In this document: in pieces, positions 35,183 through 62,260 of the stretch
Layout of the letters: every line of letters begins with the position of its first letter
Position numbering within the stretch: the stretch's first letter is position 1
From: Terriglobus albidus
GTDB lineage: Bacteria > Acidobacteriota > Terriglobia > Terriglobales > Acidobacteriaceae
NCBI RefSeq assembly: GCF_025685425.1
Contig: NZ_JAGTAS010000058.1
Span: 620,001-684,000, forward strand
Direction: 5' to 3'
Length of the DNA: 64,000 nt
Translations under genes and position numbers: made by a program
Notes under the pieces: model-generated
What the model was told of the DNA's origin: nothing
The model's database searches: none
What the model saw: only the letters and a program-made list of their open reading frames with translations

Positions 35183-36790
35183 ATGACTGACCTGAAGCCT
35201 GTACGCCGCGCCCTCCTCTCCGTCACTGATAAATCCGGACTCACCGACTTTGCCCGCGCCCTTGCCGCGCAGGGTGTTGAACTCGTTTCGACGGGCGGTA
35301 CCGCCAAGACGCTACGCGACGCAGGTCTCAACGTTCGCGATATCTCCGACCTCACCGGCTTCCCTGAGATGTTGGATGGCCGCGTCAAGACGCTGCACCC
35401 GAAGGTCCATGGGGGAATCCTGCATCGCCGCAGCCTTCCGGAGCATGTCGCCGCTGTTCGCGAGCACGGTATCGAGGACATCGACATGGTGGTCGTGAAT
35501 CTGTATGCCTTTGAGGCCACGGCTGCCAAGCCGGGTGTTACCTTCGGCGAATTGGTTGAAAACATTGACATTGGCGGCCCCTCGATGGTGCGGTCCGCTG
35601 CCAAGAACTTCGAGGATGTCGCCATCGTCACCCGCGTGGCCGACTACTCCGCCATCTCCGCGGAACTCCAGAGCAACAGCGGCAAGCTCTCCGGCGAGAC
35701 CCGCTGGCGTCTTGCCCAGACGGCCTTTGCCACCACCGCCGCTTACGACTCCGCCATTGCCGCGACCGTGGCAAAGCTTCCCTACGCCGAGCCGGAAACG
35801 GTCCTTACCCAGCCGGAGGCCAAAGCCGGAGAGTACCCACAGCATCTCGAGCTCGGCTTCCAGCTGGCGCAGACCCTGCGCTACGGTGAGAATCCGCACC
35901 AGTCGGCAGCGCTCTATCTGGACGCCTCCGGCAAAGGGATCGCTGCCGGGAAGCAATTGCAGGGTAAGGAGTTATCGTTCAACAACCTGGTGGACCTGGA
36001 TGCCTGCTGGGAGCTCGCCAGCGAGTTTGCCGAGCCTGCGGTCGCGATCATCAAACACACCAACCCCTGCGGCGCGGCCACCGGAACCTCGGTTGCCGAC
36101 GCCTATGTCCGCGCCCTGGCCGCCGATCCCATCTCCGCTTTTGGCGGTGTCATTGGCATCAACCGAGTGGTTGACGAAGCCGCAGCCGCTGAAATGGTGA
36201 AGCTCTTTGTCGAGGCGATTGCTGCGCCCGGTTTTACCCCTGAGGCTCAGGCCATCTTTGCCGCGAAAAAGAATCTGCGGCTCGTCGAGGTGAAGGCTCA
36301 CCCAGCGCAGCAGGTTATCAAGCAGATCTCCGGCGGTCTGCTGTTGCAGGACGCCGACCGTAAGCGTATTGAAGCCGGTGACCTGAAGATCGTCACCCAG
36401 CGCGAGCCGACGCCGGAAGAGCTGACAGCGCTGCTCTTCTCCTGGCGCGTCTGTAAGCACGTGAAATCAAATGCGATTGTCTACGCCCGCGCCGAAGCGC
36501 ACGGCCATGAGGTCTTCGGCCAAACAGTTGGTATTGGCGCTGGACAGATGTCGCGTGTGGATGCGGCCAAATTCGGAGCGCTGAAGGCGGTTCTGCCTCT
36601 GGCCGGCACCGTTGCCGCCTCTGACGCCTTTTTCCCCTTCCCCGACGGCCTGGAAACCGTAGCAGCGGCAGGAGCGACGGCGGTCATCCAGCCGGGTGGG
36701 TCGGTCAAGGATCCTGACGTCATAGCCGCCGCCAACCGGCTCAACTTGGCGATGGTATTCACTGGAATTCGTCACTTCCGTCACGGATAG
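35183..36790 (+). CDS. purH: Bifunctional AICAR formyltransferase/IMP cyclohydrolase
   Basis: Performs the last two steps of IMP synthesis. The 535-residue product has the N-terminal MGS-like cyclohydrolase (about 1-200: [58 protein letters not shown]) and the C-terminal formyltransferase (about 200-535: [14 protein letters not shown], the catalytic Lys-His in [39 protein letters not shown]). Translation starts at ATG 35183. The final stop TAG (36788-36790) consists of the TA flanking a MITE-like element and the first G of that element; the C-terminus (GIRHFRHG) is otherwise normal. Confidence 0.96.
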
Positions 36791-36901
36791 AGCATTTTTC
36801 CCCTGTGTAGCGTAGGGCTTCGGCATCTATGGGCGTTTTCCGCAATGAAAACGCCGCTGCACGCCACTTCCGGGATACCCGGCAACAGGGAAAATGCTCT
36901 A
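36788..36901. mobile_element. MITE-like element, copy A2, abutting the purH stop
   Basis: A unit of 110 bases with ends GAGCATTTTTCCCCTGT and ACAGGGAAAATGCTC, flanked by TA on each side (36788-36789, 36900-36901). The internal hairpin is GGGCGTTTTC/GAAAACGCC. Its first G completes the purH TAG stop. Confidence 0.85.
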
Positions 36902-36990
36902 ATAGGAATGCTGACGCTTGTCAGCATCCCACCTGTGGGTACAATCGTCTAACCCCAAGTGACGCGGCTACCAGCCGCCCCTAGGACCTG

Positions 36991-39072
36991 ATGACATTCT
37001 TCCGGCGTATCTTTTCGGCTCGTCCAGTCTTTCTCACGGCGGCTGCGCTGCTGGCCACCCTGCCCGCTGCTGCACAACAAAAGAACGCTCCTGAGCCGCC
37101 GAAGGGTCCCGATCGTTCCGCCGCCTACTACCACTACAGCCTCGCCCACATGTATGAAGAGCTGGCCATCAATCAGGGCCGCACCGATTACGCCACGCAG
37201 GCTATCGAAGAGTACAAGCTGGCGTTGAATGCCGATCCCGACTCTGCGCAGTTGCAGAATGGCCTTGCCGACCTTTATCTGAAGCTTGGCCGCGTCCGCG
37301 AAGCCGTTTCGGTCGCGCAGGAACAGGTCAAGAAGAATCCCGATGATGTGGACGCCCACAACATCCTGGGTAAGATCTATCTTCGTTCGCTCGGAGACGG
37401 AACCCCTAATAATCAGTCGCAGCAAATGCTGCAGTTGGCCCTTACCGAGTACAAGGCCATCGTCCGCCTGAAGCCTGACAGCGTAGAAGATCATCTACTG
37501 CTGGGTCAGCTCTATGCCCTGAACCACGAAAATGATAAGGCTGAGGCAGAGCTGAAGACCGCGCAAAAGCTTGATGGAACCTCGGAAGAGGTCATCCTCG
37601 CGATGGTGCGCCTCTATGGGGAACAGAACCAGTACGACCGCATCGCGCAGCTCATCAATGCTCTGCCTATCACGGACCGTACGGCGCGGATGGAGTACTC
37701 ACTGGGTCTGACCTATGACCAGCTGAAGAAGCCCAAGGAAGCCGCGGCGGCCTATCAGCGCTCGCTTGATATCGACAACGACAACCTCGACGCGCAGCGC
37801 GGTCTCGCCAGTGCTCTGCTGCTGGACGGCCAGTTCGATGCGGCTCTGAAGCAGTACAAGGACATCGTCACCGCCGAGCCACAGGATGCACAGTCGTACA
37901 TCCGCATCTCCGAGATCCAGCGTCGTCAGGGACATTACGACGAAGCGCTCGCTACGCTCAAGAAGGCCAAGACCCTTGTCACGGATTCGCTTGAGCTCAG
38001 CTACAACGAAGCTCTGCTCTACGATTCCCTTGGCCGCTTCGATGATGCTGTCGCAACGCTGACCAAGCTGCTTGCCGACACCGCACACGCTGATGGCAAC
38101 TATACCGACGGCGAAAAGAACAATCGCGGACTCTTCCTCGATCGCCTTGGCATTGTGCTCAAGGAACAAGGTAAGACTCTCCAGGCCGTCGACACTTATA
38201 AGCAAATCGTCGCCCTTGGCGGCGATAATGTCGCGCGCGGTTATATGGGTGAAGTCGATGCCTATCGCGACAACCATGACTGGGCAAAGATGACTGCCGC
38301 TGCCGCCGAGGCTGCCAAGGCGCTGCCCAAGGACAAGTCGGTCCAGATGGTCTATGCCGGCACACTCGCCGATACCGGCAAGGTCGATGAGGCCATCGCA
38401 ATTGCCAAAGCTCAACTTGGCGGTGATGACGATCGCGATACCCGTATGCAGCTCGCGCAGATGTACATCCGGCTGAAGCGCTGGAAAGATGCGGACGAGC
38501 AACTCTCGCATGTGGAGGGCATCACTTCCCGCAATGAAGACAAGATCTACCTCTACTTCTCGCGCGGCACGCTGGCAGAACGGCAGAAGCTGTACGATCA
38601 GGCCGAGATTGAGTTCCGTAAAGTCCTGACGATTGACCCCAACAATGCCGCAACCCTCAACTATCTGGGTTATATGCTGGCCGACCGCGGTCAGAAGCTG
38701 AATGAAGCCCTCGACATGGTTCGCAAGGCCGTCGAGCTCGATCCGCAGAACGGCGCTTACCTCGATTCTCTCGGCTGGGCTTACTTCAAGAGCGGGCAGT
38801 TCACGCTTGCCGAAGAGTACCTGCTGAAGGCAAAGGATCGCATCTCGACCGACCCGACGGTCTACGACCATCTGGGTGAGCTCTACCTCCAGACCGGCAA
38901 GCTGAAGCAAGCCGTCACCTGGTGGGAGCGCTCGATGAAGGAGTACAAGATGGCTCTGGCACCGGATGCCGATCCGGCCGACCAGGCCAAGGTGCAGAAG
39001 AAGCTCGATAGCGCCCGCGTCAAGCTTGCTCGCGCTACTCCTTCACGCACCTCCGCCCTGCAGGACAAGTAA
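36991..39072 (+). CDS. Secreted TPR-repeat protein
   Basis: A 693-residue periplasmic or outer-membrane-associated protein with a signal peptide (RPVFLTAAALLATLPAAAAQ region). At least twelve tetratricopeptide-like helix pairs follow from about residue 45 to 670, e.g. AIEEYKLALNADPDSAQLQN, AVSVAQEQVKKNPDDVDAHN, EAAAAYQRSLDIDNDNLDAQ, ALKQYKDIVTAEPQDAQSYI, AEIEFRKVLTIDPNNAATLN and ALDMVRKAVELDPQNGAYLD. TPR arrays are scaffolds for protein-protein contact; the partner is unknown. No enzymatic domain is visible. AGGA precedes the ATG. It ends with a good terminator hairpin, so it is likely a single-gene unit. Confidence 0.88.
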   Translation: MTFFRRIFSARPVFLTAAALLATLPAAAQQKNAPEPPKGPDRSAAYYHYSLAHMYEELAINQGRTDYATQAIEEYKLALNADPDSAQLQNGLADLYLKLGRVREAVSVAQEQVKKNPDDVDAHNILGKIYLRSLGDGTPNNQSQQMLQLALTEYKAIVRLKPDSVEDHLLLGQLYALNHENDKAEAELKTAQKLDGTSEEVILAMVRLYGEQNQYDRIAQLINALPITDRTARMEYSLGLTYDQLKKPKEAAAAYQRSLDIDNDNLDAQRGLASALLLDGQFDAALKQYKDIVTAEPQDAQSYIRISEIQRRQGHYDEALATLKKAKTLVTDSLELSYNEALLYDSLGRFDDAVATLTKLLADTAHADGNYTDGEKNNRGLFLDRLGIVLKEQGKTLQAVDTYKQIVALGGDNVARGYMGEVDAYRDNHDWAKMTAAAAEAAKALPKDKSVQMVYAGTLADTGKVDEAIAIAKAQLGGDDDRDTRMQLAQMYIRLKRWKDADEQLSHVEGITSRNEDKIYLYFSRGTLAERQKLYDQAEIEFRKVLTIDPNNAATLNYLGYMLADRGQKLNEALDMVRKAVELDPQNGAYLDSLGWAYFKSGQFTLAEEYLLKAKDRISTDPTVYDHLGELYLQTGKLKQAVTWWERSMKEYKMALAPDADPADQAKVQKKLDSARVKLARATPSRTSALQDK

Positions 39073-39096
39073 CCAAACGGTTTCTCAAGTACAGAG

Positions 39097-39123
39097 GAGG
39101 CCAGCTTCGGCTGGCCTTTTTCG
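39097..39123 (+). terminator. Rho-independent terminator after the TPR gene
   Basis: GAGGCCAGC-TTCG-GCTGGCCTTTTTCG: a seven- to eight-base GC-rich stem closed by a stable TTCG tetraloop and followed by five T residues. Confidence 0.88.
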
Positions 39124-39145
39124 TTTTCCTTAACCCGCCGGCTGA

Positions 39146-39259
39146 TAGAGCATTTTCCCTGTAGGTGTAGATAGGGCTCCGCATCTATGGGCGTTTTCCG
39201 CAATGAAAACGCCGCTGCACTCCTCTCCCGGGATACCCAGAAACAGGGAAAATGCTCTA
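39146..39259. mobile_element. MITE-like element, copy A3
   Basis: A unit of 110 bases with ends GAGCATTTTCCCTGT and ACAGGGAAAATGCTC, flanked by TA (39146-39147, 39258-39259). Its right end lies 32 bases before the start of the dGTPase-like gene. An open frame through it reads MGVFRNENAAA, which is element sequence and not a protein. Confidence 0.88.
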
Positions 39260-39291
39260 GCCTGCTCTTAGGAGCTTTTTCGTACGATCGC

Positions 39292-40428
39292 ATGTCGACC
39301 TTGCGCAAACCCTATGCCGTTCGCGGTGATGCGGATGATCCGCTGATCCAGCGCAAATGGCCGTATCCGGAGCGGATGTCACGTTCGCCGTTTGAACGCG
39401 ACCGCGACCGCGTCGTGGGGTCACGCGCCTTTCGCCGCCTGGCCGGCAAGACACAAGTCTTCTCCACCCGTACCTCAGACCACTTTCGTTCGCGTCTGAC
39501 CCACTCGATTGAGGTCGCCCAGATCGCGCGGGAAGTCGCCTCCGCTCTTGGCCTGAACGGCGAACTCGCGGAGACGCTTGCCCTGGTTCACGACATCGGA
39601 CATCCACCCTATGGTCACACCGGCGAGCGAGCGCTCGATGAGTGCCTGCAGCCATTCGGTCTACGGTTCGATCACAATCTCCAGGCTCTGCGTACAGTCG
39701 AACGCTTCGAACAGCGTTACGCCGCGCATCGCGGCCTGAACCTGACCCTTGGTGTGCGGGAAGGCATCATCAAACACTCGCGTGACTACCCGGCTGATAA
39801 ATATCCGAAGCTTGCCGAATATTTCCTCGGCCGGCGGCCACCGCTCGAAGCCCAGATTATCGATCTGGTCGATGAGGTTGCCTACCTGACCGCCGACCTT
39901 GATGATGGTGTCGAATCAAAGATTCTGGAAGTAGGCGAGCTCTGTGAACACCTCACCATCTTCCGCGAGCTCTATGAGTTCGTGCATCGCCGGCATCCTG
40001 GTGTGGAACAGAAGTATCTCTTCCACGAGACGCTGCAGTGGATGCAGCATCGCCTGACCGACGATGTCATCAACAATGTCACCCGGCAGATCGAAGAACT
40101 GGGAATTGAAACACTGGAGCAGATCCGCGAATACCCCTATCGCATCGCCGTCTTTTCGCCGGAGATCGAGGCCATGCGCCTGGAAGAGAAGCGCTACCTG
40201 TACGAGGCGCTCTATACCTGCGGCCCGCTGGATGTGGAGCGCAAGCACGGTGTTGTCGTCATTAAGTCCCTCTTCAACTACTGGGTGAAGAATCCCAGCC
40301 AGCTTCCCAGCAATTACTACGGCGATCTGGAGACCGAGGGCGTGCCCCGCACCGTTGCCGACTATATCGCCGGCATGACCGATAGCTACATTCTCGATCA
40401 GTACGGAGCACTGGTCACCAAACTCTGA
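39292..40428 (+). CDS. dGTPase-like HD-domain triphosphohydrolase
   Basis: A 378-residue member of the deoxyguanosinetriphosphate triphosphohydrolase-like family, which removes triphosphate from dNTPs or similar nucleotides. HD metal ligands: H in SRLTHSIEVAQIAREVA, the HD pair in LALVHDIGHPPYGHTGERAL, and D in IDLVDEVAYLTADLDDG. FRRLAGKTQVFSTRTSDHFR is the N-terminal signature. The start at 39292 was preferred over in-frame starts inside the neighbouring MITE copy. The substrate cannot be fixed from sequence, since this subgroup often prefers different dNTPs. Confidence 0.88.
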   Translation: MSTLRKPYAVRGDADDPLIQRKWPYPERMSRSPFERDRDRVVGSRAFRRLAGKTQVFSTRTSDHFRSRLTHSIEVAQIAREVASALGLNGELAETLALVHDIGHPPYGHTGERALDECLQPFGLRFDHNLQALRTVERFEQRYAAHRGLNLTLGVREGIIKHSRDYPADKYPKLAEYFLGRRPPLEAQIIDLVDEVAYLTADLDDGVESKILEVGELCEHLTIFRELYEFVHRRHPGVEQKYLFHETLQWMQHRLTDDVINNVTRQIEELGIETLEQIREYPYRIAVFSPEIEAMRLEEKRYLYEALYTCGPLDVERKHGVVVIKSLFNYWVKNPSQLPSNYYGDLETEGVPRTVADYIAGMTDSYILDQYGALVTKL

Positions 40429-40442
40429 TCTGGTCACCAGCC

Positions 40443-41129
40443 CTAATCAGCAAAGTGAAAGGGATTGAAGCTGGTATGCCGGTCAAAGGCATCTACTCCC
40501 TCGGACCGCTTCAGCCAGCCCACCACGGCATAGGTGACCGGCGTGGCCAGCACTTCATAGACGACCTTCAACAGGTAGCCGGTCACGATCAGCCGTCCGA
40601 TATCGGCCCATGGAAGCGTGAAACCGAAGGTAAGCGTCATCACCACGGCGGTATCGACAGCCTGTCCGACGATGGTGGAACCCACTGTGCGCGTCCATAG
40701 CATCTCGCCGTTGGTGATCAGCTTCAGCCGTGCCAGGGTGTAGCTGTTGGCGAACTCTCCCAGGAAATACGCAATGATGCTGGCGAACAGGATGCGGGGA
40801 ATGAACCCGAAGACAGTTTCGAAGGCCGCCTGGTTATGCCATCCGCTGGCCGCAGGCAATGAGATGGTAATGGTCGCCATCGTATACAGCAGGGCCGTTC
40901 CGAAGAAGCCGAGCCAGATGGCCCGGCGCGATGCTCCGTAGCCGTAGACCTCGGTAAAGACATCTCCAAAGATGTAGGTGATGGGAAACAGGATCACGGC
41001 GCCGCTGACCTCCAGCGGTCCAATACGGCAGATCTTCTGTGCCACCAGGTTGCTGACCAGCAGAATAACGACAAATGCGGTGATCAGGGCATCAAGGTAC
41101 TTGTATCCGTGCGGCTGTGTCTTTGACAT
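40443..41129 (-). CDS. Queuosine-precursor transporter family (YhhQ/VUT) membrane protein
   Basis: A 228-residue inner-membrane protein with about six hydrophobic segments (LDALITAFVVILLVSNLVAQ, VSGAVILFPITYIFGDVFTE, AIWLGFFGTALLYTMATITI, RILFASIIAYFLGEFANSYT, IVGQAVDTAVVMTLTFGFTL, GYLLKVVYEVLATPVTYAVV). The FPITYIFGDVFTEVYGY and GEFANS motifs match the YhhQ/VUT family that imports preQ0/preQ1 for queuosine. Translation from ATG 41129 is preferred (GGAAG upstream). It is convergent with the dGTPase-like gene. Confidence 0.85.
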   Translation of the reverse strand: MSKTQPHGYKYLDALITAFVVILLVSNLVAQKICRIGPLEVSGAVILFPITYIFGDVFTEVYGYGASRRAIWLGFFGTALLYTMATITISLPAASGWHNQAAFETVFGFIPRILFASIIAYFLGEFANSYTLARLKLITNGEMLWTRTVGSTIVGQAVDTAVVMTLTFGFTLPWADIGRLIVTGYLLKVVYEVLATPVTYAVVGWLKRSEGVDAFDRHTSFNPFHFAD

Positions 41130-41194
41130 GAGCTTCCAGTATTGATAGCGTAATAGAGGCCTGCAATTCTGCGCCAAGGCACTTCAGCCTAAGC

Positions 41195-41272
41195 GTCCCC
41201 GTCGTCTAGCCCGGCCTAGGACACCGCCCTTTCACGGCGATAACACGGGTTCGAATCCCGTCGGGGACGCCA
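41195..41272 (+). tRNA. tRNA-Glu (UUC anticodon)
   Basis: The acceptor stem GTCCCCG pairs with CGGGGAC; the anticodon loop CTTTCAC gives UUC for glutamate; the T-arm reads CGGG-TTCGAAT-CCCG. The CCA end (41270-41272) is encoded. The outermost base pair of the anticodon stem appears to be C-A (CCGCC/GGCGA), a slight irregularity. Bacterial tRNA genes are common integration sites, and accessory DNA begins just after this one. Confidence 0.95.
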
Positions 41273-41382
41273 AAATATTCCAAATAACTTAGCTATCAAC
41301 ACGCTGCTCTAGCTAAAGCTCGCGGTAACGCTACGGCAACGTTCTGTACCGATTTGAGGCGGTAACCAAAGAGCTTTGCCCT

Positions 41383-41679: not shown

Positions 41680-41903
41680 CTCAGGTCGAGTTCAACGAAC
41701 AGTGGAGCGTCGACGAACTGCCGGCCTGCGACACCGGTATGGAGTTGCTGAAGCATTTCGCGGACATGCACCCAGAGTTTACGGCATCTTATATCCGCCG
41801 CCTGGCGTGGGCCGATGAGGTGGACACATTCACCGCGGCGGATCCTCTTTGGACTGCATATGTCCGTCATGTGAGCGACTGCCCTCACTGCAACGACCTG
41901 TAG
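41676..41903 (+). CDS. Unknown small protein with C-terminal HX3CX2C motif
   Basis: A 75-residue product: TQVEFNEQWSVDELPACDTG, MELLKHFADMHPEFTASYIR, WTAYVRHVSDCPHCNDL. The end HVSDCPHC has the spacing H-x3-C-x2-C used by zinc-binding anti-sigma factors, but here it is at the extreme C-terminus and no sigma-factor gene is nearby, so that role is unproven. It overlaps the preceding gene by four bases. Confidence 0.5.
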   Translation: MTQVEFNEQWSVDELPACDTGMELLKHFADMHPEFTASYIRRLAWADEVDTFTAADPLWTAYVRHVSDCPHCNDL

Positions 41904-42018: not shown

Positions 42019-43197
42019 ATGGCACGCCCCTCTACGTCACCCCTGAAGATCGCGCTGGTAACGACGTTTCCGCCGAGCTCCGGAGACCTGAACGAGTATG
42101 GCTTCCACCTGGCGAGCGCGCTACGCTCGAATGCCTCGGTTGAGGCTGTGATCTATGCGGACCAAACTGCGGCCGGACCCGAGCTCGAGGGCTTTGACGT
42201 GCGCCGATGCTGGAGGTTCAACTCCTTTCTCACGGCGTTCCACATTCTGCGGCGTGTATGGAAAGACAAGCCTGACTGCGTCTGGTTCAACATGGGCTTC
42301 TCGACCTTTGCTAATACTCCAGTGGCGGCGTTTCTGTCTGTATTCACGCCCTTTCTAGTGAAGTTCAGTGGTTACTATACGCACATCACGCTCCACACTG
42401 TCTTCGAGCGCATCAATCTGGAGGATGCACAGGTTCGTTTTGCCGGCGTGTATCGTATGGCCGGGCGCGCGGCGACTCGGGCGCTGCTCTGGTCCGGAGA
42501 CATCACGGTGCTGCTGCCGACCTTTCGTCAGTTGTTACTGGATGCATATCGTGTTCCAGCGGATCAGGTTCAGTACCGCCCTCATGGGACCTTTGTGGAC
42601 GGTCCCATAGACGCCGTCGTGCTGCCGGATCGCAAACAGCCTGTAGTCCTGGCATTCGGCTACTGGGGAACCTACAAGAGGGTAGAGATCCTGATCGCAG
42701 CGATGAAAGAGGTCCTGCGAGAGATTCCCGACGCCGTTTTACACGTGGCCGGTAAAGATCATCCCAGTACGCCCGGCTACCTGGAAGGATTGCGCAATCA
42801 ACATCGGGAGAACCGGGCTATCCAGTTCCTGGGATATGTTCCGGAGGAAGAGGTTCCCGCCGTCTTTGGACGCGCGCGCTTGGTGGTGTTGCCGTACACC
42901 TCGGCGGCCGGCACCAGCGGCGTGGTGCATCAGGCCTGCCAGCACGCTCTGCCAATCGTCGCCTCGGACATTGAAGAGTTCACAGAGATGGCGCGAGAAG
43001 AGGGCGTGGCAATGGCAATCTATCCTCGCGATGATAGCCACGCTCTAGCCGCCAAAATGCTTCGTTTATTGCAGTCCGATGAAACCTGCCTCCAGATGTC
43101 GCTGCAGAACCTGCGTGCGGCATCGGGTACTCCTATGCCAGGCGTCGTCGACTCCTACCTGGAACTCTTCCGGTCCCGCACCGGAGGGCAGAGCTAG
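42019..43197 (+). CDS. Glycosyltransferase family 4
   Basis: A 392-residue GT-B sugar transferase, probably for surface polysaccharide. N-terminal domain: LKIALVTTFPPSSGDLNEYG, then GYYTHITLHTVFERINLEDA. C-terminal nucleotide-sugar domain: VVLAFGYWGTYKRVEILIAA, EIPDAVLHVAGKDHPSTPGY, IQFLGYVPEEEVPAVFGRAR and the ExxxxxxxE-type region SAAGTSGVVHQACQHALPIV followed by ASDIEEF. The sugar cannot be told. ATG 42019 has GGTGGGA before it. The TAG stop (43195-43197) is formed by the MITE boundary, as for purH. It is on the opposite strand to the rest of the polysaccharide cluster and converges on it. Confidence 0.87.
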   Translation: MARPSTSPLKIALVTTFPPSSGDLNEYGFHLASALRSNASVEAVIYADQTAAGPELEGFDVRRCWRFNSFLTAFHILRRVWKDKPDCVWFNMGFSTFANTPVAAFLSVFTPFLVKFSGYYTHITLHTVFERINLEDAQVRFAGVYRMAGRAATRALLWSGDITVLLPTFRQLLLDAYRVPADQVQYRPHGTFVDGPIDAVVLPDRKQPVVLAFGYWGTYKRVEILIAAMKEVLREIPDAVLHVAGKDHPSTPGYLEGLRNQHRENRAIQFLGYVPEEEVPAVFGRARLVVLPYTSAAGTSGVVHQACQHALPIVASDIEEFTEMAREEGVAMAIYPRDDSHALAAKMLRLLQSDETCLQMSLQNLRAASGTPMPGVVDSYLELFRSRTGGQS

Positions 43198-43310
43198 AGC
43201 ATTTTCACTGTAGGTGTACTGCAGGGCTTCCATATCTATGGGCGTTTTCCGCAATGAAAACGCCGCTGCACGCCTTTTCCGGGATACCCAGCAACAGTGA
43301 AAATGCTCTA
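43195..43310. mobile_element. MITE-like element, copy A4, abutting the GT4 stop
   Basis: A unit of 112 bases with ends GAGCATTTTCACTGT and ACAGTGAAAATGCTC, flanked by TA (43195-43196, 43309-43310). Both ends carry the same substitution (CACTGT for CCCTGT), so the arms co-varied. Its first G completes the GT4 TAG stop. Confidence 0.88.
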
Positions 43311-43321
43311 GACCGCGCAGA

Positions 43322-44497
43322 TTAAATCAACTCACGCCAATCGGTTTTGAATCTGCCACGCAGGTTCCACATGGAAAGTGCCTGCGAAGCAAATGAGGTC
43401 ACCCACGGATTCATGTAGGGAGCGATCTCGCCGTTGCGCCTTCCAAACCAGAAGCCGCCGGACAGGCGACCGTCTTCCTCCTCAGATTGGAAACTCACCA
43501 GCGCTTCGGCTTCCTGCTCTGCGGCAGCGCGGTCGAGCGGCAACACGCTGTAGTCGTCGGCGAAGATGCGGATGCGGAGCAGCTGCGCAATGACATCTGC
43601 GCGAAGGAACTGCGGTGCGATGCTCTGCATGTACTGAGCCACTTTGGGAATGCCGTGGCGCATCGCATCCGCGCACTCCGCCTCATGCACGACCGGCAGC
43701 AAGCCTTCGAGGAAGTAGAGATAAGAGTGCAGCCGGTCCATAACCTTTTGCTGGTCGGTCACGCCAAGTAAAAATGCCTCGTGCGTTGCTAAGGCTGAGG
43801 CCAGCACGCTGCGATAAAGCTTGAGGTGATGCTCATTCTTCCCGATCTCCCATAGCTCATACCAGCCCAGGGCTGACTTCAACTGATAGCAGCCCGGAGC
43901 TTGCGACCATCGCGCTGACACGTAAGGAGCGAGTGTCTTTTCAGGCAATGAGAGAACTGGCCCGAAGTGTTCGCCGTCGAAAAAGTCCCGAGCCATGCTG
44001 GCGCCGCACTGCATGGCTGTTGCAAGAAACTCAGACGTACGGGTGAGCCGCCATACCGACAGCAGTCCGCGGATGATAATGCCGTCGTCGAAGAAATAGG
44101 AGTCGTACTTCGCCCCGGGGCCGCACTCGAACGGCATGGTTTCCGTATCGGCGTCCCAGGCCTGCACGAGATAATTTGCGGTTGTCATTGCAGCGTCGAG
44201 GTAACGGCTTTCGCCGCTTTGCTTATAGAGCGAGATGAGAGCTGAGGCGCCGTATCCGGTAATCTCGGTCGAGATAGGAGCGTTCTGTCCAAGATCGGTG
44301 CGGTAGAAGCGAGCCACACCGCCCTCAGCGTCTCGAATGCCTGAGGTTAGAAACCACTCGCCCGCGTCGTTTGATACATCTCTCCCTGCTGCCGCTGTTG
44401 CAATCATCGTCGTTACGGGCGATGTCGTCCCTGCTACCGCTGTTGCAACCATCATCGTCACGGGCGATCTCCCTTCAAGCGCATTTTTCAAGTACAT
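43322..44497 (-). CDS. Six-hairpin (alpha/alpha barrel) glycosidase-like protein
   Basis: A product of about 391 residues. After a 30-residue duplicated segment at the N-terminus (see the 44384-44473 repeat) it reads as paired helices: ITGYGASALISLYKQSGESR, YLDAAMTTANYLVQAWDADT, YFFDDGIIIRGLLSVWRLTR, ALGWYELWEIGKNEHHLKLY, SYLYFLEGLLPVVHEAECAD and PYMNPWVTSFASQALSMWN. This is the six-hairpin barrel of unsaturated glycuronyl hydrolases, epimerases or related enzymes; the exact family was not recognised. The start at 44497 overlaps the end of wecB by 23 bases; an earlier in-frame start (44554) lies deeper inside wecB. It probably acts on the polysaccharide made by this cluster. Confidence 0.65.
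   Translation of the reverse strand: MYLKNALEGRSPVTMMVATAVAGTTSPVTTMIATAAAGRDVSNDAGEWFLTSGIRDAEGGVARFYRTDLGQNAPISTEITGYGASALISLYKQSGESRYLDAAMTTANYLVQAWDADTETMPFECGPGAKYDSYFFDDGIIIRGLLSVWRLTRTSEFLATAMQCGASMARDFFDGEHFGPVLSLPEKTLAPYVSARWSQAPGCYQLKSALGWYELWEIGKNEHHLKLYRSVLASALATHEAFLLGVTDQQKVMDRLHSYLYFLEGLLPVVHEAECADAMRHGIPKVAQYMQSIAPQFLRADVIAQLLRIRIFADDYSVLPLDRAAAEQEAEALVSFQSEEEDGRLSGGFWFGRRNGEIAPYMNPWVTSFASQALSMWNLRGRFKTDWRELI
44384..44473 (-). repeat. 45-base tandem duplication in coding sequence
   Basis: Two adjacent 45-base units (44384-44428 and 44429-44473), each starting CCCTGCT and containing CCGCTGTTGCAA. In the minus-strand gene they encode two 15-residue units of the form (G/T)(R/T)SPVT(M/T)M(V/I)ATA(V/A)AG. 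The repeat stays in frame. Confidence 0.75.
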
Positions 44498-55837: not shown

Positions 55838-56119
55838 ACATTTGTCCTCAGATTGGTAGACCGCAGTGTACGCCCATCGTAAAACAACGGAGTTCAAAAC
55901 TTTTGCCGGAGTTACATCTAACGTTGTTCAGCGCTCGCAGCCCTTTCCCGGGAATGAATAAAACACGTCTACTTGTTGTCCCAGATAAACAAGAAATGGT
56001 CCTCCGCCTTTGCTCGAGTAATGGTCGATGTCACGGACATTGTCTCTCGTCGGTCTTGATAGTAGGCACGTTGGTTCTGCGACACAAAAAGGATCATCGC
56101 TGCCCGCGCGAGGTCAACT

Positions 56120-56512
56120 TTGACGAAGAAGACGATTGTTTACTGGGTGTCAACCGTGCTGGTCTCCCTAGTATTGGGTGTCTCTGGTGGGATGGCCGTT
56201 ACTCATGCTCTGCCGATGATGCGTGGCCTGGCCCATCTCGGATATCCTCCCTATTTCTCGAATATCCTTGGTGTCGGCAAGATCATAGGTTTGGGCATAT
56301 TCCTTTTTCCTGGTCTACCGAAGCTGAAAGAATGGGCCTATGCGGGGTTTACTATCACAATAGTGAGCGCTTGCTATTCGCATTTCTCATCGGGCGACGG
56401 GCTTCTTGCGCTTGAGCCCCTTGCTACGTTTGGTGCACTGATGGTTTCATATGCGAGCCGTCCCGCAAGCCGCAAAATCGCGCAGAAGCCAAACATCCAA
56501 ACAGCAACTTGA
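56120..56512 (+). CDS. DoxX-like membrane protein
   Basis: A 130-residue protein of four transmembrane segments (VYWVSTVLVSLVLGVSGGMA, FSNILGVGKIIGLGIFLFPG, WAYAGFTITIVSACYSHFSS, LALEPLATFGALMVSYASRP) with the DoxX-like signature HLGYPPYFSNILGVGKIIG and LPKLKEWAYAGFT. Function unknown; often encoded alone. It starts with TTG at 56120, with GCGAGG upstream. The 282-base stretch before it holds no other gene. Confidence 0.8.
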   Translation: MTKKTIVYWVSTVLVSLVLGVSGGMAVTHALPMMRGLAHLGYPPYFSNILGVGKIIGLGIFLFPGLPKLKEWAYAGFTITIVSACYSHFSSGDGLLALEPLATFGALMVSYASRPASRKIAQKPNIQTAT

Positions 56513-56541
56513 CCAAGCCACAGAACCTGCTTGAGCGCATA

Positions 56542-57402
56542 TCAGTCGGTGATTGGAAACTGGCCGGGACCACGTGGGAATTGTGGCAGAGCACTCGAAG
56601 TCACGTCCTTAAGAATTCGATGTAAGTCCCGAATTCCGTCTGTTAAGGATGCCGGTCCCGGCTGGAGGATATGTGAGGAAGGCACCTCATATACGTGGCC
56701 GTTCCGTACAGCCGCAATCGCGTCCCAACCAGGGCGGGAACAGATCTTATGGATGTCGACCTTCATCCCACACCAGGACGCGATGATTACGTCTGGATTG
56801 CGTCGAATAACTTGTTCCGGCTGAACAGCCCGATCTTTTGCTTTTCGCTGTCTGCGAAGCTCCGGGAAGATCGGTTCCCCGCCGGCGATCTCAATCAGCT
56901 CCTCTACCCATTCAATTCCGCTAATGAGCGGATCATTCCATTCTTCGAAGAACACACGCGGTCGCCAGTTGAAAGCTGCAGCGGCATTCGCAATCTTCTC
57001 CAACTCTGACTGGTACGCAGCGACGAGTTGCTTTCCCTTCTCTGGCTGGTTTACGAGCCGCGCGATCAGTTCAATGAACTCGAAAATTTCCGACACGTTG
57101 CGCTGATTGAAATTGAGCACCGGAAGGCCGCGATGGATGGCCTCTTTTGTAATCTCAGCCTGCACATCGGAATAGGTGATGACGAGGTCAGGATCAAGCT
57201 TTTCGATGGCTTCAAAGTTAGCATCCTGAAAGGTCGAAACGCGAGGCTTCTTCCTCACTTCTGGAGGCCTCCGGGAAAATCCCGACACACCGACGATCCG
57301 ATCCTGCTCGCCGAGCAGATACAACAACTCGCTCGCCTCATCAGAAAGGCAAACTATGCGCGAAGGAAATGTTTGAGACTTTGCTGCAAATGTCAGAAGC
57401 AA
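56542..57402 (-). CDS. BtuF-like periplasmic-binding-fold protein, lone
   Basis: A helical-backbone binding protein of about 286 residues of the cobalamin/ferric-siderophore class: RIVCLSDEASELLYLLGEQD, RIVGVSGFSRRPPEVRKK, VSTFQDANFEAIEKLDPDLV, LDPDLVITYSDVQAEITKEA, FFEEWNDPLISGIEWVEELI and PGWDAIAAVRNGHVYEVPSS. There is no signal peptide or lipobox and no permease or ATPase gene next to it, so it may act in the cytoplasm or be an orphan. The TTG at 57402 (GGGAGA before it) gives a family-like N-terminus; a GTG at 57492 is an alternative. The ligand is uncertain. Confidence 0.72.
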   Translation of the reverse strand: MLLTFAAKSQTFPSRIVCLSDEASELLYLLGEQDRIVGVSGFSRRPPEVRKKPRVSTFQDANFEAIEKLDPDLVITYSDVQAEITKEAIHRGLPVLNFNQRNVSEIFEFIELIARLVNQPEKGKQLVAAYQSELEKIANAAAAFNWRPRVFFEEWNDPLISGIEWVEELIEIAGGEPIFPELRRQRKAKDRAVQPEQVIRRNPDVIIASWCGMKVDIHKICSRPGWDAIAAVRNGHVYEVPSSHILQPGPASLTDGIRDLHRILKDVTSSALPQFPRGPGQFPITD

Positions 57403-57548
57403 TAGAGCTGTCTCCCGATTTATTCGAAATGATTCGGTACAGTATTCAGGCGCTTCATGAGGAGTTGCCTTCTCTGCCGGACACGCCACCACCCAAATAT
57501 ATCCAGTCTAGCTCTTCGAGAGTGGCGCCCTTTCATGGACAAAAGATG

Positions 57549-57584
57549 AAGGCGCAGGACCCAATGGCTGGCAATCCTGCGCCT
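57549..57584 (-). terminator. Hairpin terminator after the phosphoesterase gene
   Basis: AAGGCGCAGGA pairs with TCCTGCGCCTT (11 bases) around a 14-base loop; read on the minus strand it is followed by CATCTTTT. Confidence 0.7.
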
Positions 57585-57621
57585 TGTTCTGGAGCGGCTA
57601 TATCAGACGAAGCAGTTGTAG

Positions 57622-58842
57622 CTACTTGCCGTTATTGACCTTGTCTCCTGGAATGGCGCCGGGCTGGAACAGATCAGAGAGATCGGGTGCATTCGCGGCG
57701 TCACCGACCAGCGGCGTGAGGTGGAATATCTCTTCCATGGTCCTCAGGTCGGAGGAGTGCGTCAGATTAACCGTGCTGGCGTAAGGAACGCCATGGTCGT
57801 TCTGCCGTGCGTGCTTGGAGATGATGATCTCGGGGATAGTATGGCTGAAGTCATCCTGCTTGTCCCCGGCCATGCCGTCCTCTTCGGACTCATCCCACCA
57901 AAGGATGATGACGCCATTCTCCTGGTAGGCTTTGGACGCCATGATGGCCGGCACAACCTGAGCAAGAAAATCATCACCCTGGCGGATCTTGGCCGCGTCA
58001 CCAGTAAGCCCCTTGTAGCCGGCGCTGAGCGCAGTGTGCATGTCGTTGTACTGGTTCGGCGTAATCCAGTTGTACTCGGCTACAGTATTATTCGCGAGAT
58101 CGGTGAAAAGCTGCTGCAGAGGGGCATACTGCGGCGCGAGGGGGTTCGAGGCGGTTGGATTATTGCCGCCGTTTGTATCAGTGAAGAACACCATCGGATT
58201 GTGCTTGGCAGCGTAGTTGTATTGGTTGGAGCCATTGAACTGATTGACGCCGCTTGAGAATCTGCCGGAGAAACTGCTGAGTGGAACGGTGTACTGGTCA
58301 GCGGATAGAGGAACGTTCGTCAGCTTGCCATTCGCATCTTTTGCGAGATCGGTGTCTTCCTGGTAGGACCTCCAGGTATGACCAGACTTTGCGAGCAGCG
58401 TCACGAGATGCTGAGTGGTGTTTTGGACAGTAGGGCCACTGGCCGCGTAGGGATCGTTATCATTGAGCACGCCCAGGTTGCTACCGGCTTCCGCCCAGAT
58501 GTAGTTAGGCTCCGAGGGATGGATCTCCGGATTGTCTCCGCTGGGTGTAGCGAGTACGTTGTGATAGGCGTTAGCGTAGGCAACCTGCTCGCTGATGTGC
58601 TTGGTGACACCGTTAACCTCCGCCCAGGCGGTTCCATCGACCAGACTGTTAATAAACGGAGCGTTGGGATTCATATAGACCTGTTGTATGCCGCCGGAGA
58701 ACTTGTTCGCGGGCTGCGTCCAGTTGTGATTCTCCATAGCGATGACGAAGACGGTCTTGATCTGCTGTGCGTTCGCGCTAAGAGCGCATCCAGCTGCAAG
58801 CGCGCAGACGCCCAAAAGGTTTGAGTACCGAATCTGATGCAT
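57622..58842 (-). CDS. Secreted phosphoesterase (PF04185-like, acid phosphatase/phospholipase C type)
   Basis: A 406-residue exported enzyme; signal peptide NLLGVCALAAGCALSANAQ. The alkaline-phosphatase-like fold starts at VFVIAMENHNWTQPAN, where the Glu-Asn is the family metal site start; GTAWAEVNGVTKHISEQV and HNVLATPSGDNPEIHPSEPN follow with conserved His/Thr; WWDESEEDGMAGDKQD and DFSHTIPEIIISKHARQ supply the C-terminal metal ligands. Acts on phosphate esters in the periplasm or outside. GGAGAT lies before the ATG. Confidence 0.87.
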   Translation of the reverse strand: MHQIRYSNLLGVCALAAGCALSANAQQIKTVFVIAMENHNWTQPANKFSGGIQQVYMNPNAPFINSLVDGTAWAEVNGVTKHISEQVAYANAYHNVLATPSGDNPEIHPSEPNYIWAEAGSNLGVLNDNDPYAASGPTVQNTTQHLVTLLAKSGHTWRSYQEDTDLAKDANGKLTNVPLSADQYTVPLSSFSGRFSSGVNQFNGSNQYNYAAKHNPMVFFTDTNGGNNPTASNPLAPQYAPLQQLFTDLANNTVAEYNWITPNQYNDMHTALSAGYKGLTGDAAKIRQGDDFLAQVVPAIMASKAYQENGVIILWWDESEEDGMAGDKQDDFSHTIPEIIISKHARQNDHGVPYASTVNLTHSSDLRTMEEIFHLTPLVGDAANAPDLSDLFQPGAIPGDKVNNGK

Positions 58843-59419
58843 TGCCTATCTCCAAAAGTGATTTGTGGTCCTATGCATGGGTCCTATCCGAGCGGCGGCA
58901 GTATCGCTCCTGTATAGGCGCCTGGGTTATCGAACAAATCAAGGTGAGATGGACCATCTGTCCAGTTGCTCCTAAGGCTACCGGGAGGATGCCACAGCAC
59001 GGCTCTCTTGGCCGCTAACCTGCGAGATCATCGCGGCGATGGTCATCATTCACCTTCGGCGCATTTCTAACCGGCTCATCAACAGCAGTTCTGCAAGACT
59101 CAGCGGTCACCCAAACATCTTGCCTTGCGTTCGCGACAGCAAAAAGCTGGGTCACCCGCAACCCGTCCTAATGAGAAGAACGATATTAGGAATCGTTGAA
59201 CGGAATTTAACGACCCGGTGAAAGCTCGCGTAATCCAGCCTGAAGCAACATCGGCATTGCCAGTATGATCTCTCACGGCCCAATCTTCGCGGTTTATCGC
59301 AAAGGCCGGGTTCCCAAGCAAACCTGTTCGCTGGGGTGTAGCGTGGGTATCGCGCTTCGGGGGCCGCATTTTCTATACCTAACTCGCTCCGGAGGTTCCA
59401 GCCATAGCGCCAACAGTAG
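58843..59419. other. 577-base non-coding gap
   Basis: Between the starts/ends of the phosphoesterase and GH172 genes. It has no convincing gene, RNA or repeat; it presumably carries the phosphoesterase promoter. Confidence 0.5.
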
Positions 59420-60568
59420 TCACCTCGGTTGAGGGTCACCTTCCTGACGTGGCTGCTTCGCATTGCCAGGTCCGCCCACTGCCTGTAATGCGGGGATTCG
59501 TTCACTCATCTCAGGCAGCGCAGGAAACGGCATGTGAGGCTCAGCCTGATACCAGTACGCAACGGAGTAGAAGTTGTCGGAACGGGCATTGGCATGACCG
59601 TGTTCAATGCTCGCCTTCATCGACTTGGTAAATGGGATAGGAGAATCGAGATGGAAACGATAGACGCTCGATCGCGATCCGGCGACCTCGTGGCCAACGA
59701 CGGGAGAGCCGTGTAACAAAAAGCTCTGAGGCGAACCAAAATCCCATGCGCCTAAGAAATAGTCCTCCGATCCCGTTCCGACGATCGTAGAAACGGCGCC
59801 ATCGTCGACCTCGAACCGGTCGTTCCCTTCCCCCCACCATCCATCCTGGTTTTGCAACACGGACATCGTTACTCCAATGAACTGCCCATGCCCCTTGGCT
59901 TCGAACCATACGTAGTTATCTTTGCCATCGAGGTTGCGACGGTAGTTTACCCGTGGGTCGCCGTTGTCGTACCAGTCAGAGACCCAGCCATGATTTGGCT
60001 GTGCCTGCCTGTATTGCGCATGGAAATACAACGTCCCGGCAGGTGGAGGCTTTAGTTCCTGCCGATAGTCAATATTCCAGTAAAAGCTGCTGACCGACTG
60101 CTTGCCTTCATTGGTCACCGTAACGCGAGCATGTTTTGCGTATGGCATTTGGAAGTAGCTGTTAAGAGAGCGATCAGCTCCGACAGACAAAACTGGCGAC
60201 GACCAGTAATAGTACTGTCCCGTGCCCAAACCGAAAAAGTCTCCGATTGGCGTCTCTACACTCGGCGTACTCTCTCCATCCCAGTACATGCGCAAGACAA
60301 CGCGTTTCAGGTGATAGCTTTCCGGAGCATTCAGGGTGAACCAGATGTGTGAAATTCTGCCAGGGCCGTCGACATCAAGAATGGTCAACGTCTCCCCGGG
60401 CGTAATTGTCCGGTAATCCGCATTCGCTCCGGTAGCTTCACGGCTCGACGACCGATGCATCGTGTAAGTCTGCTGCACGGTGGGATCGGGAAATCCCTCC
60501 ATACCTTGGCCAGAGGCAAAACAGGATGACATAACCAGGGACAGGACAAACACGATTATGGACTTCAT
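59420..60568 (-). CDS. GH172 (DUF2961) glycoside hydrolase-like protein
   Basis: A 382-residue exported protein, signal/lipobox-like start MKSIIVFVLSLVMSSCFASG. DUF2961/GH172 features: ETLTILDVDGPGRISHIWFT, RVVLRMYWDGESTPSVETPI, GDFFGLGTGQYYYWSSPVLS, YWNIDYRQEL, GDPRVNYRRNLDGKDNYVWF, GSEDYFLGAWDFG and SRSSVYRFHLDSPIPFTKSM. The invariant glutamates of the family sit in the TGSEDYF and DGES regions. Family members cleave fructofuranosides and arabinofuranosides; the substrate here is unknown. The start at 60568 gives the signal peptide; an upstream start at 60640 is not convincing. Confidence 0.85.
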   Translation of the reverse strand: MKSIIVFVLSLVMSSCFASGQGMEGFPDPTVQQTYTMHRSSSREATGANADYRTITPGETLTILDVDGPGRISHIWFTLNAPESYHLKRVVLRMYWDGESTPSVETPIGDFFGLGTGQYYYWSSPVLSVGADRSLNSYFQMPYAKHARVTVTNEGKQSVSSFYWNIDYRQELKPPPAGTLYFHAQYRQAQPNHGWVSDWYDNGDPRVNYRRNLDGKDNYVWFEAKGHGQFIGVTMSVLQNQDGWWGEGNDRFEVDDGAVSTIVGTGSEDYFLGAWDFGSPQSFLLHGSPVVGHEVAGSRSSVYRFHLDSPIPFTKSMKASIEHGHANARSDNFYSVAYWYQAEPHMPFPALPEMSERIPALQAVGGPGNAKQPRQEGDPQPR

Positions 60569-60672
60569 GACCCAGAGAACCCTCCGGCACATCACATTTG
60601 CAAGATTTGTAACGCCGTGGAGGATATCACTTCTCCTCAATATGCTGTTCGGAATCCAATGGTGGTAGTACA

Positions 60673-60695
60673 GGTTTGAATCCCGCCGGGGCGCC
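60673..60695 (+). repeat. Degenerate tRNA 3'-end-like fragment, possible att relic
   Basis: GGTTTGAATCCCGCCGGGGC then GCC resembles the T-arm and acceptor end of tRNA-Glu at 41195-41272 (GGTTCGAATCCCGTCGGGGA then CGCC). All substitutions are transitions, with one base lost. No tRNA body precedes it. It could mark the far edge of an old insertion into the tRNA gene, or be chance. Confidence 0.35.
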
Positions 60696-60815
60696 GGCCC
60701 GGCTTCAGCACTGCTCCGAAGTGGCCCCGAAGAATGATTTTGTCAGAAATTGCTGCACTTCTGTCATGGCAGCGCTCCCGCGAGGTTCCTAGAATGGGGT
60801 TGGAAGGTGCACCAA

Positions 60816-61460
60816 ATGTCAAATCTGTCCTCCAGTCTTGTCATTCCCGATTCCTCACTCGCAAAAGAAGCTACACATCTGCTGCGTGAGCATTCCACGG
60901 ATCTTCTCTTCAATCATTCGATTCGCGTTTATTTGTTCGCAGCCGAGCTGGGCCGCCAACGAAAGCTTCACTTTGATCCTGAACTCCTTTATGTCGCGGC
61001 TGCATTTCACGACTTCGGTCTCATTCAGAGATACTCAAGCCCAGACGAACGCTTTGAAGTGGATGGCGCAAATGCGGCCCGTCAATTTCTCACTGCGCAT
61101 AAGGTTCCTGAAGATCAGATCCAACTGGCATGGGAAGCCATTGCGCTGCACACCACCCCCGGTATTACCCAGTACATGCGCCCTGAAGTAGCCCTCCTTT
61201 ATTCAGGAGTCGGTCTTGATGTGCTTGGAAGAGGCTTCGACCAGTTTCCATCGGAGTTGCGCGATGAGATCGTCAGCCGATATCCCCGAAAGCACTTCAA
61301 AGAACGCTTCATCCAGGAGTACTTCGCTGGTTTTGCGCACAAGCCGGCTACGACTTACGGCACCGTGAATGCCAGCATCTGCGAACGTCTCATCCCCGGA
61401 TATAACGCTCCGAATGCCTGCGACGTAATAGCTGCATCTCCTTTCCCCGACTCCGAATAG
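60816..61460 (+). CDS. HD-domain hydrolase
   Basis: A 214-residue cytoplasmic protein with HD metal residues: H in LLFNHSIRVYLFAAELG, the HD pair in YVAAAFHDFGLIQRY, H in AWEAIALHTTPGITQYM and D in LYSGVGLDVLGRGF. This resembles cyanamide-hydratase-like and other small HD proteins; substrate unknown. ATG 60816 has GGAAGG before it. It is the first gene beyond the possible island edge and is followed by mug after 67 bases. Confidence 0.82.
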   Translation: MSNLSSSLVIPDSSLAKEATHLLREHSTDLLFNHSIRVYLFAAELGRQRKLHFDPELLYVAAAFHDFGLIQRYSSPDERFEVDGANAARQFLTAHKVPEDQIQLAWEAIALHTTPGITQYMRPEVALLYSGVGLDVLGRGFDQFPSELRDEIVSRYPRKHFKERFIQEYFAGFAHKPATTYGTVNASICERLIPGYNAPNACDVIAASPFPDSE

Positions 61461-61527
61461 AAGCGGTGAATCTATGGAAAATGAGTGTTGATAGCTCGTA
61501 ACCTCATATCTGAGCGCTGCCCCCGAG

Positions 61528-62157
61528 ATGAAGGACATGCAAGTTGAACGATCGAAGATCCTGGCGCGAACGACACCGGCTTTGCGGGATATTCTCGCGC
61601 CAGGTCTGCGGGTTGTGTTCTGTGGCATCAATCCGGGGCTGAGCTCCGCAATGCTCGGTCATCATTTTTCGAATCGCACTAATCGCTTTTGGAGGGCAAT
61701 CCATCTTGCCGGATTCTCTGCCGAGGAGATCACTCCCAAAGATGATGAATCAATTCTCTCTTACGGCTGTGGCCTCACAACGGTAGCTGAGAGAGCGACA
61801 ACCTGTGCGGCAGATCTCTCCCGAGATGAATTTGAGAAATCGGCTTCAAGTTTCTTCGCAAAAATCGCGCATTACTCCCCCATGTATGTCGCCTTCCTGG
61901 GGAAGCCCGCGTTCTCTGCTCTCTTCAACAGAAATAAAGTCACGTGGGGAAAACAGGATCTCCTGCTGACAGGATCGAGGACGTGGGTTTTACCTAATCC
62001 CAGCGGGCTCAACCGGTCATTTTCATTACGCCAACTGGTAGCCGCATACAGCGAACTTCGCATCGCGGTGGAGGAACTCGTTCTGGAGCAGCATGGCGCT
62101 AAAGCCCTCCGGGCCAGGCGCGATGATATTTTCGGAAATGCGGGCCGAATGGCGTAA
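61528..62157 (+). CDS. mug: G/U mismatch-specific DNA glycosylase
   Basis: Removes uracil or thymine derivatives mispaired with guanine. The 209-residue product, longer than E. coli Mug (168), has the active-site motif VFCGINPGLSSAMLGHHFS, NRTNRFWRAIHLAGF, GCGLTTVAERATTCAADLS, and the second motif LPNPSGLNRSFSL. The extra length is at both ends. ATG at 61528; ATG three codons later is possible. A MITE-like copy begins next to its stop. Confidence 0.9.
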   Translation: MKDMQVERSKILARTTPALRDILAPGLRVVFCGINPGLSSAMLGHHFSNRTNRFWRAIHLAGFSAEEITPKDDESILSYGCGLTTVAERATTCAADLSRDEFEKSASSFFAKIAHYSPMYVAFLGKPAFSALFNRNKVTWGKQDLLLTGSRTWVLPNPSGLNRSFSLRQLVAAYSELRIAVEELVLEQHGAKALRARRDDIFGNAGRMA

Positions 62158-62260
62158 AGAGCTAGTGCACTGAGTCATTCATTCGGGCAACGATTTTTCC
62201 GCAATGAAAACGCCGCTGCATGCCCCTTCCGGGATACCCAGCAACAGGGAAAATGCTCTA
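62158..62260. mobile_element. MITE-like element, copy A5, abutting the prpD stop
   Basis: The right half matches the other copies (CCGGGATACCCAGCAACAGG then GAAAATGCTC) with TA at 62259-62260; the left end has decayed (AGAGCTAGTGCACTGAG). On the minus strand the first G of the element (62258) and the TA form the TAG stop of prpD. Confidence 0.75.

Follow-up and report, generated by a model that had tools for sequence, protein, structure and literature searches.

A repeat element that supplies gene stops

The 64,000-nucleotide stretch of Terriglobus albidus DNA analysed here (the window; C28:620001-684000 of G000, a genome of 6.10 Mb in 58 contigs) contains several copies of a short repeat with inverted ends, three of which lie exactly on the ends of genes. 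The repeat family comprises two subfamilies: type A, which is 116 bp long with 17-bp inverted ends, and type B, which starts with GAGCAATTCTCC and has the same layout. In purH, in a glycosyltransferase gene and in prpD, the stop TAG is made of the TA that flanks the element and of the element's first G, as an initial annotation of the window had claimed and as can be read at 36788-36790, 43195-43197 and 62258-62260. The copy docked on purH (36788..36901, plus strand) has the form TA + GAGCATTTTTCCCC...GGGAAAATGCTC + TA, its left end, GAGCATTTTTCCCC, being slightly altered, and its first three bases are the stop codon of purH (35072..36790, plus strand), a gene called at 572 residues with an uncertain start, whose product matches TIGR00355 (E 1.6e-196) up to residue 571 of 572. 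The prpD gene (62258..63706, minus strand), encoding a 2-methylcitrate dehydratase of 482 residues, takes its TAG from a copy with an eroded far arm (62145..62260, minus strand; far border extrapolated from the copy profile), and its product matches TIGR02330 (E 2.1e-252) to residue 482 of 482. Since these NCBIfam equivalogs are matched up to the last residue or the one before it, both proteins are whole. The third docked copy, which is intact (43195..43310, plus strand), forms the stop of a group 1 glycosyltransferase gene (GT4-like; 42019..43197, plus strand; PF13692, E 3.6e-22; PF00534, E 7e-19) and lies at a convergent junction whose width, without the copy, is 10 bp; the facing neighbour (43322..44455, minus strand) is a called gene of 377 residues for which the family scans gave no match.

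A gene at 6351 had been said to end in the same way at an isolated type A end. That end (6337..6353, minus strand; TA + GAGTATTTTCCCTAT, found by motif match) does supply, as TA-GAGTATTTTCCC, the stop of a 201-residue open frame (6351..6956, minus strand); the frame itself is weak, with a coding score of 19 and no Pfam or NCBIfam match in the family scans. Two further copies had been described as intergenic. This holds for the copy at 5935..6163 (plus strand), a type A copy whose sequence is interrupted by a type B copy of 112 bp, GAGCAATTCTCC...GGAGAATTGCTC (6008..6119, plus strand; C28:626008-626119). For the other (39146..39259, plus strand), identified by motif and profile as intact and with TA on both sides, the description depends on the gene that follows: one caller starts it at 39292, leaving the copy intergenic, and a second at 39187, inside the copy. 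The nested type B copy appears to be flanked by TC on both sides and not by TA, so that the requirement for TA as a target is perhaps not strict.

The element family and its relation to IS630

Copies were located in a 1.664-Mb sample of G000 (C28 1-1264000 and C39 1-400000) by means of a profile derived from 19 full-length ones, which returned 148 copies, 127 of them full, 71 of which have TA on both sides; a few type B copies were also caught by this type A profile and are thus inside the counts. The element is short and non-coding, bears terminal inverted repeats and reaches 148 copies per 1.66 Mb, which are the traits of a miniature inverted-repeat transposable element (MITE). Its exact 12-bp end, TAGAGCATTTTC, occurs 311 times in the 6.1 Mb of the genome, against a single occurrence of the reversed pattern used as control; in the window, the end motif GAGCATTTTCCCTGT, with at most 3 mismatches, was found 11 times, compared with a mean of 1.47 and a maximum of 6 in 100 shuffles. 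For type B, 5 of the 12 exact TAGAGCAATTCTC strings are stops. Within the genus, copies are numerous in four genomes out of 19, namely G000, G002, G012 and G015; G010 gave weak partial matches, and G035, which belongs to the same family, one match of 28 bp, so that 6 genomes among the 61 had matches. The exact 17-bp end was found, among the matches listed, at 65 acidobacterial loci out of at least 76, named Granulicella included; the 11 non-acidobacterial loci were left out.

The assignment of the repeats to TA-targeting, Tc1/mariner-type elements, advanced in the initial annotation, gained support from the duplication of TA (described below) and from an insertion sequence (IS) with like ends in the congener G014. 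This IS (L318:1380-2403, 1024 bp) is bounded on either side by TA-GAGCATTTTC and carries, in two frames, matches to DDE_3 (E 1.6e-34) and HTH_Tnp_IS630 (E 2.2e-4, just above the cut-off). Because an IS630-family IS shares with the repeats both the GAGCATTTTC ends and the TA flanks, the repeats are very probably IS630-type MITEs; a duplicated TA and ends held in common with an IS encoding an IS630 transposase are what is expected of the IS630 and Tc1/mariner groups. Four IS630 loci were examined (L119, L318, L319 and L320), and GAGC ends were seen in L318 alone. Pairs of facing ends 250-4000 bp apart yielded five candidates for full-length elements, none of which was confirmed: at C23:65697-66728 two copies enclose a host frame, three more pairs join the ends of already listed separate copies, and the fifth pair is L012. 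L188:793-1734 was likewise rejected, being two copies that enclose host frames.

Two other origins were considered and rejected. Repetitive extragenic palindromic sequences (REPs) and bacterial interspersed mosaic elements (BIMEs) are linked to REP-associated tyrosine (RAYT, or Y1) transposases and are not known to duplicate TA. Ten Y1 genes were found in G000, and at none of the eight loci examined did the element lie at the borders; one of the eight (L115) does have a copy, but some 900 bp away from the gene, and the TA duplication sets the family apart from REPs and REPINs. One of the ten Y1 transposase-like genes lies in the window (26088-26417, minus strand; PF01797, E 2.7e-21), with borders devoid of the element repeat. 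The second origin, from IS5/IS427 elements, with their YTAR target, was set aside because PF13340 is absent from four of five genomes and PF01609 from G000 and G015; of 19 PF01609 loci, the 6 examined had no element ends at their borders, two of them showing a lone element end at a distance of about 1 kb, and the sole PF13340 element, in G012, has different ends. Locus L237 (G012 contig 561) holds an IS5/IS427-like element with ends GGGTGTATCGACA and flanks TTGCTAG...CTAGCAACC, also at CTAG.

Excess of insertions at stop codons

Genes in the G000 sample were called with a self-written hexamer caller (1236 genes). The called stop coincides exactly with a copy end in 48 of the 148 copies, and 49 of the 860 called TAA or TAG stops are formed by an element border. 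As circularity had to be avoided, full copies were deleted in silico, a single TA was kept in place of each, and genes were called again. This excised-site test omits the 56 of 127 full copies in which at least one flanking TA is missing, and the skipping of 8 of the 127 that adjoin a previous copy reduced the TA-flanked sites scored from 71 to 67. Stop codons took 32 of these sites, intergenic TAs another 32 and coding TAs 3, while the background of TAs after excision comprised 853 in stops, 7912 intergenic and 36658 coding. Stops therefore represent 50% of the non-coding excised sites (32/64), against an expectation of 9.7% (p = 3e-16). Insertions are found mostly in YTAR contexts (CTAG, CTAA), and, among copies TA-flanked on both sides, 32 of 33 docked ends have a purine (A or G) right after the far TA, compared with 82 of 109 other ends. 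This context preference is real and accounts for part of the excess only: when each XTAY context was weighted by its intergenic rate, the expectation rose from 9.7% to 16%, still far from the 50% observed (p = 4e-10).

Two replication sets were used, with one genome per species in all comparisons. In a 780-kb sample of G002, 10 of 30 copies are docked, and stops hold 7 of the 15 non-coding excised sites, with 9.3% expected (p = 2e-4). The second set consisted of 65 contig pieces from relatives, chosen for carrying the exact element end, in which stops represent 26 of 56 non-coding sites; per-TA rates in these pieces are inflated because the pieces were chosen for element presence, and the proportions are still usable. 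Once shared insertions were merged (7 rows dropped from 142 sites), 135 distinct sites were left: 62 lie in stops, 65 are intergenic and 6 coding, and for 2 the calls from two genomes disagree, so that stops make up 62 of the 127 unambiguous non-coding sites. The docking on stops described in the window was thus confirmed, and its excess extends beyond the window.

TAG is about as frequent as TAA among the stops, which is unusual for bacteria. After excision, the G000 sample contains 431 TAA, 425 TAG and 386 TGA stops, and the G002 sample 187, 212 and 171, respectively. The idea that TAG is common merely through the elements was therefore rejected, given that TAG nearly equals TAA in G000 once they are removed.

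Orthologous genes without the element

Orthologues of the 49 docked genes were accepted at 55% identity with an alignment reaching to 25 residues or fewer from the end. Composite protein queries were used for 26 of the genes, the others being compared within the sampled stretches and loci only; 20 genes without a qualifying orthologue were left out, and 29 had at least one usable orthologue, in 28 cases in G002. The C-terminal end residue is identical in all 28 G002 orthologues, four of which also carry the element at that stop. The 24 element-free ones end in TAA (14) or TAG (10) and never in TGA; in the G002 sample, TGA represents 171 of the 570 stops after excision. These orthologues show that the element inserted into pre-existing stops, and they agree with the earlier proposal that insertion into TAA or TAG regenerates TAG and leaves the protein whole. 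Orthologous element-free sites have a single TA, and the bases that follow the element-free stop equal those that follow the far TA in G000 at 293001 and 908708 (compared with G002) and at 134874 (compared with G017), which points to a clean two-base duplication. As for the window genes, element-free purH orthologues end in TAA in G001, G002, G005 and G011 and in TGA in G013 and G017, while that of G015 has the element at the same stop; the G002 orthologue of prpD, 83% identical and element-free, ends in TAG.

The same data bear on the notion that the docked genes had lost or overrun their own stop and now borrow the TAG of the element. Element ends do provide TAG in frame, and 1 of 33 docked ends would read through after excision; however, the 28 equal end residues and the TAA or TAG already present in the 24 element-free orthologues make it extremely improbable.

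Gene ends and tight convergent junctions

The occupancy of individual TAs was then related to their distance from the stop. In G000, 29 of 806 stop TAs are occupied, compared with 5 of 445 TAs located 1-15 nt downstream and about 0.4% of those farther away. Over all genes, the figures are 60/1465 for stops, 14/788 for 1-15 nt (9/591 after TAA or TAG stops) and 14/2285 for 16-60 nt. With stratification by context and data set, the odds ratio with respect to far sites is 7.7 for stops (p = 8e-30) and 3.95 for TAs 1-15 nt downstream (p = 5e-5). Occupancy thus peaks in the stop itself, with a lower shoulder around the end of the gene.

The distance to the following gene matters as well, and crowding at tight convergent junctions was not foreseen in the initial annotation. 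Docked stops number 46 of 718 where the gap is 100 bp or less and 14 of 747 where it is wider (p = 1e-5), or 31/505 and 11/500 for longer genes (p = 0.002). When junctions were counted in the G000 and G002 samples (the unbiased sets), omitting genes shorter than 100 residues and overlaps above 20 bp, tail-to-tail junctions held 9 insertions at 39 junctions of 30 bp or less, 3 at 69 of 31-100 bp, 2 at 103 of 101-300 bp and 6 at 65 above 300 bp (30 bp or less against all wider, p = 5e-4; against 101-300 bp, p = 1.5e-4). The 10-bp junction of the glycosyltransferase gene is one of the nine occupied gaps in the first class. Two TA-flanked sites in the same junction were not found among the junctions counted. 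The exponent that relates insertions to the number of TAs is -0.22 +- 0.23 for convergent junctions, 0.36 +- 0.13 for tandem ones and 1.05 +- 0.45 for divergent ones, where a value of 1 is predicted if all TAs are equivalent.

The choice initially offered, between selection that keeps only harmless insertions and a preference for stop contexts, was resolved only in part by these results: the context preference stands, as a partial cause, and pure tolerance fits poorly. Under the latter, the element would insert at random TAs, and the survivors would be those that spare proteins and promoters, stop codons being the safest TAs of all. Coding TAs are indeed nearly empty (3/36658); among gaps of 100 bp or less, non-stop TAs are occupied more often in convergent than in divergent regions (5/198 vs 1/257), no insertion being found at the 69 divergent junctions of that size in the unbiased sets; and pneumococcal repeats located between convergent genes have been interpreted in this neutral way (PMC3049150, section 6). 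However, in the longer, more reliable genes, stops are occupied at 42/1005 whereas non-coding TAs just past them are occupied less (5/553 at 1-15 nt, 8/1507 at 16-60 nt), convergent non-stop TAs over all gaps barely exceed divergent ones (0.44% and 0.33%), and convergent insertions do not grow with the TA count. Moreover, more diverged copies are not docked more often, the docked share being flat across copy-score quartiles (11/31, 8/31, 12/31 and 12/34). Neutral tolerance on its own is therefore unlikely, and the crowding at tight junctions, which it does not predict, could follow from either targeting or benefit.

Targeting at the time of insertion would mean that the transposase or a host factor favours gene ends, for instance the supercoiled DNA between converging genes, and then a TA in a YTAR context. 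Such a mechanism is consistent with the docked share being equal at all divergences, with the crowding at tight convergent junctions and with the higher occupancy of TAG than TAA stops (39/752 vs 21/713, p = 0.035), which matches the CTAG bias of intergenic sites, although this difference loses significance in longer genes (26/508 vs 16/497, p = 0.16). Targeting of IS630 by transcription or supercoiling is not known to us. A preference of IS630 for CTAG has been published (Tenzen and Ohtsubo 1991, by its title as listed in PMC2170065). We regard targeting as possible, with some doubt prevailing.

Retention through a benefit to the host is a further tentative explanation, in which the hairpin at the stop would insulate packed genes, by blocking read-through or antisense transcription or by protecting mRNA 3' ends, as proposed for some REPs. 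The RNA of a docked copy transcribed with its gene is predicted to form a hairpin of -50.3 kcal/mol (z -6.8), whose outer stem spans 17 bp and has the stop codon at its base; enrichment is strongest in tail-to-tail gaps of 30 bp or less; and insertions scale weakly with TA number in convergent and tandem junctions, with at most one TA-flanked site in each. E. coli REPs located less than 16 nt from the stop lower translation, according to the part of PMC12306157 cited, and by analogy the docked hairpin may do likewise. On the other side, no T-run follows the purH and glycosyltransferase copies, the only two inspected, by eye and with no terminator scan, so that in spite of the hairpin they are not canonical intrinsic terminators; docked copies show no orientation bias (27 vs 22), although the element is nearly symmetric; the flat docked share is contrary to long retention; and convergent gaps above 300 bp are occupied no less than those of 31-100 bp. 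The balance leaves a host benefit conceivable, if somewhat doubtful.

Taken together, the repeats are very probably non-autonomous MITEs of the IS630 type (Tc1/mariner superfamily), inserting at TA, mostly in YTAR contexts, with duplication of the TA. An insertion at the TA of a TAA or TAG stop rebuilds TAG from the duplicated TA and the first G of the element and leaves the protein unchanged, as excision and orthologues show; coding insertions would have been purged by selection (6 of the 135 distinct sites are coding, with one more ambiguous). The several-fold higher occupancy of stop TAs over other non-coding TAs would then arise from context, from the harmlessness of the site and from a pull towards compact gene 3' ends, chiefly tight tail-to-tail junctions. 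This third factor is seen as a distribution; it may arise because the transposase or some host factor targets such ends, or because copies whose hairpin is useful at these junctions are retained. A bolder and rather unlikely extension is that the MITE now serves as an element of stop codons and gene junctions, directed to tight tail-to-tail gene ends or preserved there, never more than once per junction and largely irrespective of the TA number. TAA or TAG stops would there become a TAG at the base of a long hairpin, and this hairpin would insulate the two genes and slow translation termination.

Several points weigh against this IS630-type reading and its emphasis on stops. Occupancy of the stop exceeds that of TAs 1-15 nt downstream just 2.3-fold after context correction (p = 0.02), or 1.98-fold in the unbiased sets (p = 0.15), and TAs 1-15 nt past TGA stops are occupied at 5/197 (2/125 in longer genes), which indicates, against a purely stop-specific reading, that part of the signal belongs to the gene end and not to the stop codon. 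Eleven docked copies are among the 56 full copies outside the excised-site test. The gene calls come from a self-written caller, and any genes it missed would make far sites look less occupied than they are; moreover, one site is a stop in the calls of one genome and intergenic in those of another. In distant genomes, some orthologues end 1-9 residues earlier or 1-3 later and a few in TGA, and the orthologue filter itself favours equal C-termini. Finally, the end identity between the G014 IS and the MITE stops after about 10 bp, which makes that IS a relative and not the direct parent, and no autonomous element with MITE ends was found in the carriers for the families searched: none of the IS630 copies seen in G000, G002 and G015 has these ends, and G012 gave no DDE_3 match.

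Comparison with known gene-end repeats

One of the closest parallels is RUP, a 107-bp pneumococcal MITE with IS630-type ends and a TA target, thought to be moved by IS630-Spn1 (in the part cited of PMC2229807) and over-represented between convergent genes (in that of PMC3049150). The present element resembles it in size, ends, target and convergent-gene excess; it differs in having half of its TA-flanked copies inside the stop codon itself. BOX elements also form gene stops, encoding those of 36 S. pneumoniae genes with no strong evidence of truncation relative to orthologues; they are, however, modular and longer, with ends compared with ISSpn2 and not IS630, and sections 6 and 9 of PMC3049150 contain no comparison with a TA background. 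In E. coli, 260 of 496 REPs were proposed in an earlier study to act on translation, and a newer survey places 446 of 4072 (11%) at 15 nt or less from the stop (PMC12306157, in the part cited); like the present element, REPs and BIMEs are palindromic repeats near stops, but they are positioned past the stop and do not form it. ISY100, of the Tc1/mariner superfamily, inserts at TA with duplication as seen here, but IS630 and ISY100 are autonomous, and the cited passages of PMC2170065 do not mention stop codons. Coxiella QMITEs and enterobacterial RU elements are MITEs at gene 3' ends that change the C-terminus (PMC5896051 and PMC2759123, in the parts cited), unlike the present element, which leaves it unchanged in the genes compared. 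In the open-licence literature, as far as the cited texts extend, we found no description of a MITE half of whose intact copies lie within stop codons, and no null test per TA.

The family offers a natural experiment, with matched genes that have or lack a long hairpin at the stop within one genus; these allow a direct test of whether gene-end repeats (REP, BOX and the present family) arise from transposase targeting or host benefit. For annotators, the element border can be a genuine stop.

Tandem arrays and shortened copies

In G000, copies also occur in tandem arrays, at C39:265340-265740, C39:268740-269130, C39:124960-125220 and C28:301880-302140 (within L104, L097 and L046). At the inner junctions of several separate arrays, the end beside the shared TA reads GTCGCATTTTC, ATCGC, ACCGC or TCGC, and not GAGCATTTTC, as if these inner ends had been inactivated repeatedly. 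A type B derivative of 47 bp, barely more than the two ends, lies at C28:772103-772149 (within L066) and is perhaps near the minimal mobile form.

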